Assembly (NCBI GenBank): GCA_032334235.1
Contig: JAVSGI010000005.1
Coordinates: 434,001-498,000 of the forward strand
DNA: 64,000 bases
DNA from: Paracoccaceae bacterium Fryx2
Lineage (GTDB): Bacteria; Pseudomonadota; Alphaproteobacteria; Rhodobacterales; Rhodobacteraceae
Direction: 5' to 3'
In this document: in pieces, positions 47,852 to 63,647 of the stretch
Layout: the number at the start of each line of letters is the position of its first letter
Position numbering within the stretch: the first letter of the stretch is position 1
Notes under the pieces: generated by a model
The model's database searches: none
Seen by the model: only the letters and a program-made list of their open reading frames with translations
Told to the model about the DNA's origin: nothing
Position numbers and translations under genes: made by a program

Positions 47852-47887
47852 CCGGCGCGGCGGGTCGGGCGGGCGGCCTTCATGAAA

Positions 47888-47905
47888 CTGTTACAAAACC
47901 GTCGC
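47888..47905 (+). promoter_or_regulatory. PHO box upstream of pstS
   Basis: CTGTTAC-AAAA-CCGTCGC, two 7-bp half-sites repeating with an 11-bp period, as in alphaproteobacterial PhoB sites. It lies 82 bp upstream of the pstS ATG and 37 bp after the phoR stop, so pst genes should be induced under phosphate starvation. Confidence 0.75.
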
Positions 47906-60530: not shown

Positions 60531-61589
60531 ATGCTGCCGATGGAAAAACTTGACCAGATCACCCGACGCTTCGAGTTTCTCGAAGCCCGGCTTGCTGCCG
60601 GGGCGTCGCATGGTGAAATCGCCAGCCTCAGCCGCGAACATTCCGATCTGGCCCCGGTGGCGCGCGACATCGCCGCCTACCGCCGCGCGCTCGACGATCT
60701 GGCCGAGGCCGAGGCGATGCTGGCCGACCCCGAGATGCGCGCGCTGGCCGAGGATGAGCTGCCCCGCCTGCGCCTCCGCATCCCCGAGATGGAACAGACC
60801 CTGCGGCTGGCCCTGTTGCCCCGCGATGCCGCCGACGCCCGCCCGGCGATTCTCGAAATCCGCCCCGGCACGGGGGGCGAGGAAGCGGCGCTGTTCGCGG
60901 CCGACCTCTTGCGGATGTATCAGCGCTTTGCCGAAAGCCAGGGCTGGACCTTCGAGATCCTCAGCCAGCAGGACAGCGATCTGGGCGGCATCCGCGAGGT
61001 CACGGTCAACGTGCGGGGCGAGGGGGTCTTTGCCCGGCTGAAATACGAATCCGGCGTGCACCGGGTGCAGCGCGTGCCCGAAACCGAGGCTGGCGGGCGC
61101 ATCCACACCTCGGCCGCCACGGTGGCGGTGCTGCCGGTGGCCGAAGAGGTCGATCTGGTGATCCCGGCGTCCGACATCCGCATCGACACGATGCGCGCCA
61201 GCGGGGCAGGCGGCCAGCATGTCAACACCACCGATTCGGCGGTGCGGATCACCCACCTGCCGACCGGCATGATCGTGACCAGCGCCGAAAAATCGCAGCA
61301 CCGCAACCGCGACATCGCCATGCAGGTGCTGCGCGCCCGGCTCTACGATCTGGAGCGGGCGCGGATTGACGGGGAACGCGCCGCCGACCGCAAGTCGCAG
61401 GTCGGCTCGGGCGACCGCTCGGAACGCATCCGCACCTACAACTTCCCGCAGGGCCGCATCACCGACCACCGGATCAACCTGACGCTTTACGCGCTGCCGC
61501 AGGTGCTGGCGGGCGACCTGACCGAGATCATCGACGCGCTGACCGCGCATGACGTGGCAGGCAAGCTGGCCGAGATGGAGGCGTCGTGA
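60531..61589 (+). CDS. prfA: Peptide chain release factor 1
   Basis: A 352-residue class I release factor for UAA/UAG. The GGQ motif is in [20 protein letters not shown] (about 222-241). The N-terminal helical domain and the [17 protein letters not shown] start of domain 2 (about 105) are normal. [22 protein letters not shown] near the C-terminus is also typical of RF1. ATG 60531 ([10 protein letters not shown]) fits homologs; ATG 60540 is an alternative. There is little Shine-Dalgarno. prmC, encoding the enzyme that methylates this GGQ, overlaps its stop. Confidence 0.95.
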
Positions 61590-62416
61590 CACTGGGCGAG
61601 GCCCTGCGCGCCGCCACCGCCCGGCTGGCAGCTGCCGGGGTGCCCGACCCGGCCCGCGATGCCCGCCACCTGCTGGCCCATGCCGCCAGATTGCCTGCTG
61701 ACCGCCTGACCCTGCACCTGTCCGATACCCTGACGCCCGACGCCGCCGACCGTCTCGACGCGGCGCTCGCCGCCCGCGCCCAGCGCCAGCCAGTCAGCCA
61801 GATCGTCGGGCACCGCCTGTTCTGGGGGCGACGTTTCGGGGTCACGCGCGACACGCTCGACCCCCGCCCGGAAACCGAGGCGCTGATCGCCGCCGCGCTG
61901 GCCGAACCCTTTGCCCGCGTGCTCGACCTCGGCACCGGCACCGGGGCCATTTTGCTGACCCTGCTGGCCGAACGCCCCGCCGCGCGCGGTGTTGCCACAG
62001 ACATATCGGCTGCGGCGCTGGAGGTGGCGCGGGGCAACGCGGCCGGCATGGGTCTGGCAGATCGCGCCGACTTCCTGCTGTCGGACTGGTTCGCTTGCGT
62101 GACCGGTCGCTTCGATCTGGTCGTCGCCAATCCGCCCTACATCGCCGCAGCCGAGATGGCAGACCTGTCGCCCGAGGTGCGCGACTGGGAACCGCATCTT
62201 GCCCTGACCCCGGGTGGCGACGGGCTGGCGGCCTATCGCGCGATTGCCGCCGCTGCACCGGCCCATCTTGCCCCCGGCGGGCGGCTGATGGTCGAGATCG
62301 GGCCGACGCAGGGCGCCGCCGTCTCGGCCCTGTTCGCCACCGCCGGGCTGACCGGGATTGCGGTGCTGCCCGATCTTGACCGCCGCGACCGGCTGGTGCT
62401 GGGCCGGATGCCGTGA
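61586..62416 (+). CDS. prmC: Release factor glutamine methyltransferase
   Basis: A 276-residue SAM-dependent methyltransferase that modifies the Gln of the GGQ motif in release factors. N-terminal helical domain (1-75), [16 protein letters not shown], then motif [17 protein letters not shown] (about 112-127) and the catalytic [13 protein letters not shown] (N-P-P-Y, about 178). The start is GTG 61586 overlapping the prfA TGA, so the enzyme and its substrate are co-translated. Confidence 0.95.
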
Positions 62417-62451
62417 TCGCTGCGGGAATTTCGCCACACCGCAGCGAAACC

Positions 62452-62469
62452 CTGTCAAAAAACTGTCAG
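62452..62469 (+). promoter_or_regulatory. Near-perfect PHO box upstream of the DUF4167 gene
   Basis: CTGTCAAAAAACTGTCAG: the exact hexamer CTGTCA twice with an 11-bp period, an A-rich spacer and no mismatch. This is closer to the alphaproteobacterial PhoB consensus than the pstS site at 47888. It lies 36 bp after the prmC stop and 219 bp before the DUF4167 ATG. Confidence 0.7.
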
Positions 62470-62687
62470 ATACGGGCAAAACTGCCGCATGCGACCAGAA
62501 TCGGCTTGTCAGCGCCCCGGTCCTCTGTGTAGTCAGGGTATACGCGATGAGGGGATGGCTTCGGGTTTCCGGCCCATTTACCGCGCGCTCAAGCCAAAAA
62601 TGCTCCACACGCCCCAGATTGGGCGCAGCGCGGCGTAGTGCCGCTGGCGTGCGGGCAAAGCCAGAACATTCTGGATACAAGGACAAC

Positions 62688-63647
62688 ATGAGATCCTCCA
62701 AGTCCCGCTCGCGTTCGAAATCGAACCGCCCGCGCACGATCGGCAACATCGTGAACCGCGTTTTCGACAGTTCAGGCCCCGATGGCAAGGTGCGCGGCAC
62801 GCCGCAGCAGATCATCGAGAAATACCTGGTTCATGCGCGCGACGCGCAGCTGTCGAATGACCGTGTCGCGGCCGAGAACTTCCTGCAGCACGCCGAGCAT
62901 TATACCCGGATGCTGGGCGAGGCGCAGCGTGAACTCGCCGCCGAAATGGACGCCCGCCCGCCGCAGCAGGAGCAGCGCCCGCAGCAGGAACAGCGCCCGC
63001 AGCAGGAACAGCGCCCGCAGCAGGAGCAACGCCCGCAGCAGGAGCAACGCCCGCAGCAGGCCCACCAGCAGCGTGATCGGCAGTCCAACGGCAACGGCAA
63101 TGGCCAGCCGCGCGACGACCGGCCCGATTACCGCCCCGAATACCGGTCCGACGACCGCAACGACCAGCGCGGCGACCAGCGCACCTACGGGCGGGGCGAC
63201 CAGCCGTCCGACGCGCGCCCCGAGCCGCGGGATGACCGGCCGGAGCCTTCACCCTATCGCCGCAGCACCGAGGTGATCGACCTCGCCGATGTCGCAGACG
63301 ATACGGGTCTGGTGGAAACGCCGGAAAGCCGCCGCGCCCCCGACATCCGTCAGACCGAGCCGCGCCAACCCGAGCAGCGTCAACCCGACCAGCGCAAATC
63401 CGAAGGGCGGCAGCACCGCGCAGCCGATGCAGCGCCCAAGGCCACGACGCGCGCGCCGCGCCGGGCACCGGAGCCCAAGCCGGAAGGCCAGGGTGCCGCG
63501 GATCAGGTCGCGGTTGCCGGTCCGGATCAGGCGGATGCGCCGAAGCCCGCTGCGAAAACCCGCAGCCCGCGCAAGCCGCGCGGCGAGAAGCCGCAAGCCG
63601 AAGGCGATGCCCCGGCCAATGGCAATCCGCGCGCAGCCGCCGAATAG
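62688..63647 (+). CDS. DUF4167 domain-containing protein
   Basis: A 319-residue highly charged protein. The conserved part is the N-terminal DUF4167 domain (about 1-85): SKSNRPRTIGNIVNRVFDSS, GTPQQIIEKYLVHARDAQLSN and AENFLQHAEHYTRM. After it come five exact PQQEQR repeats (about 92-121) and a long disordered, Arg/Asp/Gln-rich tail with PREP-like segments to the end. Domain function is unknown; the basic N-terminus suggests nucleic-acid or RNP association. AAGGA precedes ATG 62688. Gene order prfA-prmC-DUF4167 is common in the group. Confidence 0.9.
   Translation: MRSSKSRSRSKSNRPRTIGNIVNRVFDSSGPDGKVRGTPQQIIEKYLVHARDAQLSNDRVAAENFLQHAEHYTRMLGEAQRELAAEMDARPPQQEQRPQQEQRPQQEQRPQQEQRPQQEQRPQQAHQQRDRQSNGNGNGQPRDDRPDYRPEYRSDDRNDQRGDQRTYGRGDQPSDARPEPRDDRPEPSPYRRSTEVIDLADVADDTGLVETPESRRAPDIRQTEPRQPEQRQPDQRKSEGRQHRAADAAPKATTRAPRRAPEPKPEGQGAADQVAVAGPDQADAPKPAAKTRSPRKPRGEKPQAEGDAPANGNPRAAAE
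62961..63060 (+). repeat. 18-bp coding tandem repeat in the DUF4167 gene
   Basis: Five in-frame units of CCGCAGCAGGARCARCGC from 62961 to 63050 plus a partial sixth. They encode PQQEQR and differ only at silent positions (GAG/GAA, CAG/CAA). Confidence 0.92.

Follow-up and report, generated by a model that had tools for sequence, protein, structure and literature searches.

A PHO-box-like repeat, a conserved promoter and a predicted structured leader RNA upstream of a DUF4167 gene in Rhodobacteraceae

The window analysed here, a stretch of 64,000 nucleotides from Paracoccaceae bacterium Fryx2 (contig JAVSGI010000005.1, positions 434,001 to 498,000), includes a gene encoding a DUF4167 protein that is located downstream of prmC on the same strand. 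The region between the two genes holds a PHO-box-like direct repeat, a conserved promoter and a predicted leader RNA; a pair of overlapping PHO boxes upstream of pstS, in the same window, was used for comparison. The features are as follows:

47877-47905, plus strand: comparison, two overlapping PHO boxes before pstS, CCTTCATGAAACTGTTACAAAACCGTCGC, with CCTAG about 20 bp downstream
61586-62416, plus strand: prmC, the upstream neighbour
62452-62469, plus strand: PHO-box-like direct repeat CTGTCAA-AAAA-CTGTCAG, 11-bp period; not conserved
62498-62502, plus strand: GAATC, a GANTC motif and possible CcrM site, just before the -35 element
62506-62511, plus strand: -35 element TTGTCA (within CTTGTCA), conserved
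62529-62534, plus strand: -10 element GTAGTC, preceded by TG at 62526-62527 and lacking a final T; spacer of 17
62542-62687, plus strand: predicted 5' leader RNA of about 146 nt, from a putative transcription start
62543-62587, plus strand: leader hairpin H1, arms 62543-62558 and 62574-62587
62602-62656, plus strand: leader element H2, outer stem 62602-62613 / 62646-62656 enclosing two inner hairpins
62661-62674, plus strand: leader hairpin H3, CCAGA-acat-TCTGG
62679-62683, plus strand: Shine-Dalgarno-like AAGGA in the conserved AAGGACAA, directly before the ATG
62688-63647, plus strand: DUF4167 protein gene, 319 aa (Pfam PF13763, E 3e-29)

In the alignment of DUF4167 proteins, residues 1-85 are conserved and the C-terminal part is of low complexity; tandem repeats of about 18 bp at 62963-63060 encode, in frame, QQEQRP units within the latter. 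In the AlphaFold model, residues 1-95 (pLDDT 79) form a beta hairpin and two helices, and a Foldseek search with this model yielded no significant match (best E 1.1); likewise, no PDB relative was detected by sequence and no NCBIfam model was found for DUF4167. In the literature, DUF4167 appears in no title or abstract and is only mentioned in the text of 4 papers, and no paper was found that unites Rhodobacter, small RNA, leader and prmC. The conserved N-terminal part of the protein is very basic (MRSSKSRSRSKSNRPR), and therefore, RNA binding combined with feedback on its own mRNA is a reasonable guess at what this protein might do. At the other end of the intergenic region, the prmC stop codon is immediately followed by a 9-bp perfect inverted repeat (TCGCTGCGG / CCGCAGCGA, 62417-62447) that lacks a T run and possibly represents a processed or stabilised end of the prmC mRNA.

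The 18 bases at 62452-62469 (CTGTCAAAAAACTGTCAG) are located between the prmC stop (62416) and the DUF4167 ATG (62688), 218-219 bp from the latter. An earlier, sequence-only reading of this DNA described a perfect direct repeat, CTGTCA-N5-CTGTCA, with an 11-bp period, and the sequence at 62452-62468/9 is exactly that. With two CTGTCA-type units at this period and an A/T-rich 4-bp spacer (AAAA, as in the pstS set described below), this is, by its letters, a good PHO-type sequence. The whole 5.47-Mb genome contains 2 perfect CTGTCA-N5-CTGTCA sites, and the box at 62452-62469 is the sole perfect match genome-wide to the A-rich form, CTGTYANAAAACTGTYA, with pstS coming next at 2 mismatches; it is thus the top PHO-pattern match of the genome. 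Matches to CTGTYANAAAACTGTYA with three mismatches, among which are the ugpB and phnC sites, number 19+8 genome-wide vs 14+13 for a reversed-pattern control, so that these weaker matches are uninformative by themselves.

To score the box, we used an 18-position weight matrix derived from 22 pstS-promoter sites of relatives, each with at least 10 of the 12 repeat letters. The box scores 21.2, and the two overlapping sites before the organism's own pstS (that is, three tandem units) score 21.0 and 19.6; accordingly, the box is level with either of the pstS sites, and the proposal that it is better than them holds only to that extent. Besides the box and the pstS pair, no site in the 64-kb window scores above 11.5. 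The exact score distribution gives, at 21.2 and 68% GC, a chance expectation of about 0.5 sites per genome, or about 0.006 in a window of 64 kb; for a single given upstream region of 300 bp, the expectation is 3e-5 to 6e-4, varying with the local GC content. The box is therefore unusual in the window and not beyond chance genome-wide; when two genome-equivalents were simulated with a Markov model, no site reached its score. The box carries A at position 7 and G at position 18, whereas all 22 pstS sites have C or T at both positions.

Several other PHO-box-like sites were identified in the same genome. Those located before ugpB and phnC (L208:1501-1518; L213:1501-1518; L214:1501-1518), along with a third site included among them, CTGTCACGAAAGTTTCAC, at a distance of about 7 kb from that of phnC, are likely to be ordinary phosphate-regulon promoters. 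The second perfect CTGTCA-N5-CTGTCA, CTGTCACACCTCTGTCAC (L002:1501-1518), scores 21.7 and is located upstream of a pyruvate kinase gene, at a distance of about 211 bp; it could be either a second candidate or a second chance match. The identified near-perfect repeats elsewhere in the genome precede genes that are unrelated to phosphate, namely those for pyruvate kinase and for proteins of the HupE/UreJ and TctC families.

For analysis of conservation, DUF4167 genes with their upstream DNA were gathered from a contig collection and from whole genomes, which yielded 127 non-identical upstream regions. The box was found in none of the 126 orthologous regions, all of which, including the nearest relatives compared, come from other genera, so that all that can be said is that the box is limited to a genus-level lineage. 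In the first round, 450 bp were searched at each of 80 loci, and none of these loci contains a site with two or fewer mismatches. Among the 127 regions, with both strands considered over 320 bp, the second-best matrix score is 16.1, reached on the minus strand in one species; in the 120 bp preceding the conserved -35 element, the best score elsewhere is 8.8 vs 21.2 for the box. In the closest relative, the matching spot (gctgaaaaatccagcaaa) is an A-rich tract without repeats. The sequence-only reading had assigned DUF4167 to the phosphate regulon and had itself named lack of conservation of the box as an outcome that would speak against this assignment; with the box present in 0 of 126 orthologous upstream regions, the claim is unsupported.

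What the orthologs do share is a promoter. Anchored on CTTG, the pattern CTTG[TC]C-N15-TG occurs at the same place in 81 of the 127 upstream regions, followed by a conserved N-TTANTC, and the homology with the nearest relatives detected by blastn starts at 62541-62542, where transcription is expected to start. The element has the makeup of an alphaproteobacterial sigma-70 promoter (a conserved TTG -35, a spacer within the range of 16-18 bp, a -10 element of the kind that comes with or without -7T), and a promoter and terminator scan that required E. coli-type hexamers came up empty, since these hexamers do not resemble those of E. coli. The -7T is commonly absent from alphaproteobacterial promoters, a feature that has been linked to CarD (PMC8407463); the DUF4167 promoter resembles CarD-activated promoters of this type in its TTG -35, spacer of 17 and -10 element without the final T, and we found no difference from them. 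A gap of 2 bp separates the GAATC at 62498-62502 from the CTTG of the -35 element. GANTC is found at exactly the same offset in 26 of 81 aligned promoters, with 7.5 expected from column composition (shared ancestry being uncorrected in this comparison), and GANTC is absent from the adjacent offsets. Since the genome also encodes a GcrA-family protein, cell-cycle control of DUF4167 is worth considering.

The box is centred at about -82 relative to this promoter and ends 36 bp upstream of the -35 element. In a standard PHO promoter, the box stands in for the -35 element; in most pstS promoters, CCTAG or a similar -10 follows the last repeat by about 20 bp, and ugpB has a TATC-like element; in contrast, neither CCTAG nor a TAT-like sequence is present in 62470-62505. 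The box thus shares with the PHO boxes of pstS, ugpB and phnC the pair of CTGTCA units 11 bp apart and the A-rich spacer, but differs from them in having purines at positions 7 and 18 where they have a pyrimidine after CTGTCA, in lacking a -10 at the usual downstream distance, in lying ahead of an independent -35 element, and in the lack of conservation in orthologs. Judged by its surroundings, its position is not that of a standard PhoB site.

These comparisons bear on the possibility that the box functions as a PhoB operator that this lineage has gained. Phosphorylated PhoB, bound near -82, would then activate or repress DUF4167 and bring it into the phosphate regulon. The sequence, number and arrangement of PHO boxes are known to differ among promoters (PMC4415409), the genome has the ordinary PHO targets pstS, ugpB and phnC, and a real PhoB site at 62452-62469 is conceivable given that this is the genome-top match, with a matrix score level with pstS, on the coding strand and between genes. 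Nevertheless, considering the absence of the box from the orthologous regions, the A and G at the pyrimidine positions, the missing -10 at PHO spacing next to a conserved promoter that stands on its own, and a chance expectation of one such site in every two genomes, we view such an operator as doubtful. Binding of PhoB to the box in vitro is a more modest proposition, for which the odds appear even.

Direct repeats with an 11-bp period are common to the OmpR/PhoB family of response regulators, and a different member of this family could read the box, in line with the bases at positions 7 and 18, where it deviates from PHO boxes; however, the A-rich spacer matches that of the local PHO boxes, and we rate the chances of this alternative as very slim. 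It seems most plausible that the repeat, which lies upstream of the promoter in a fast-changing A-rich stretch, arose in this lineage through a few substitutions; under the reading we favour, it would not be the main control of DUF4167 and would, at most, contribute PhoB input that is specific to this lineage and comes from a non-standard position.

The 219 bp between the box and the ATG had been taken for a long leader that might hold an unannotated RNA. We rejected a single RNA of this length because of the conserved promoter that lies within it and the start of homology at 62541-62542; the 219 bp combine upstream DNA, the promoter and about 146 nt of predicted transcript leader. The suggestion of an unannotated RNA stands for this shorter segment, which is conserved, appears structured and belongs to no Rfam 15 family: the leader has no Rfam 15 match above the gathering score, and at a permissive threshold, only chance-level matches were obtained.

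The fold was derived with RNAalifold, under several settings, from a sequence-only alignment of 7 close leaders. The settings agree on one fold that includes H1, H2 with its two inner hairpins, and H3 preceding the AAGGACAA-ATG segment. In this alignment (n=7), which is also the one the structure was derived from, two-sided changes are observed in 13 of 36 pairs vs 5.8 +/- 1.8 in shuffled alignments, with 0 of 500 shuffles reaching the observed number, and the signal is lost when the pair partners are slid; larger covariation counts come from model-fitted alignments, which are biased towards the structure. A covariance model (R1) detects leaders outside the seed (E values of 1e-11 for L065, 2e-11 for L059 and 3e-9 for L057) and outscores a sequence-only model built from the same alignment (R2) in all 19 shared non-seed leaders, by 3-23 bits, or about 10.6 on average. 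With a refined model, R3, further leaders (L079, L055, L067, L171 and L078) are reached; among 40 whole genomes, R3 matches in 27, at one place each, and 25 of these 27 matches are directly before DUF4167, the remaining 2 being weak (E 0.002 and 0.03). In Pseudorhodobacter turbinis, a DUF4167 gene with this leader (L228:2386-2536, R1 53.2 bits) resides on a plasmid-labelled replicon of 1.58 Mb, NZ_CP039965.1.

An alignment-free test, in which 72 leaders with less than 80% mutual similarity were folded and compared with shuffles, gave a mean z of -1.32 (s.e. 0.12) for H1, the first 45 nt, vs -0.40 for DNA upstream of the promoter. For the whole leader, the z of -0.86 equals that of an upstream control of similar length (-0.87), and the leader in the window taken alone reaches only -0.75. 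When 38 leaders were aligned with plain MAFFT, RNAalifold returned no consensus fold, the leaders being misaligned; working with subsets and a covariance model solved this. These results would fit a leader that is not a functional RNA, its apparent structure reflecting GC-rich sequence and alignment fitting. We consider this improbable, given that the two-sided changes on the sequence-only alignment exceed all 500 shuffles, that H1 differs from the upstream DNA, that the structure model wins in all 19 non-seed leaders found by both models, and that the matches are restricted to DUF4167 leaders. Thus, H1 is well supported, the predicted H2 and H3 are supported mainly by covariation, and the comparative data show the promoter and the predicted fold to be conserved across many Rhodobacteraceae genera, with covarying base pairs in the leader.

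The retention of base pairs through two-sided changes and the linkage to one downstream gene are the marks of a cis-acting leader. A hairpin at the 5' terminus commonly shields mRNA from 5'-dependent decay, and translation can be tuned by a hairpin adjacent to the ribosome-binding site; the DUF4167 leader is probably a cis-acting element of one of these two kinds, affecting the stability or translation of the mRNA. In being single-copy, attached to one gene and ending its covarying stems at the ribosome-binding site, it resembles the feedback leaders of the ribosomal-protein type; it differs from these in having no Rfam family, and feedback by DUF4167 is speculation. A fuller scheme, in which the leader is a new Rhodobacteraceae family of cis-regulatory RNA bound by DUF4167 for feedback and a new PHO box adds phosphate control, strikes us as highly improbable.

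Our preferred reading, to which we assign a probability of roughly two in three, is that DUF4167 is transcribed from a conserved promoter with a structured leader that would act in cis, and that the box is not the main control. Transcription would proceed from the housekeeping-type promoter (-35 TTGTCA, -10 GTAGTC), starting near 62542; in the resulting leader of about 146 nt, the 5' hairpin would be followed by a branched stem in the middle and, immediately ahead of the ribosome-binding site, by a small hairpin.

The repeat illustrates that a motif matching a regulon consensus can be the best in its genome and yet fail tests of conservation, spacing and base preference. The assignment to the phosphate regulon is unsupported, and of the earlier suggestions, that of an unannotated RNA within the leader most deserves to be followed. 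DUF4167 proteins are widespread in alphaproteobacteria and have no known function; a conserved, gene-specific leader offers a concrete handle on them, a short RNA with which binding by the DUF4167 protein and control of its own mRNA may be addressed.
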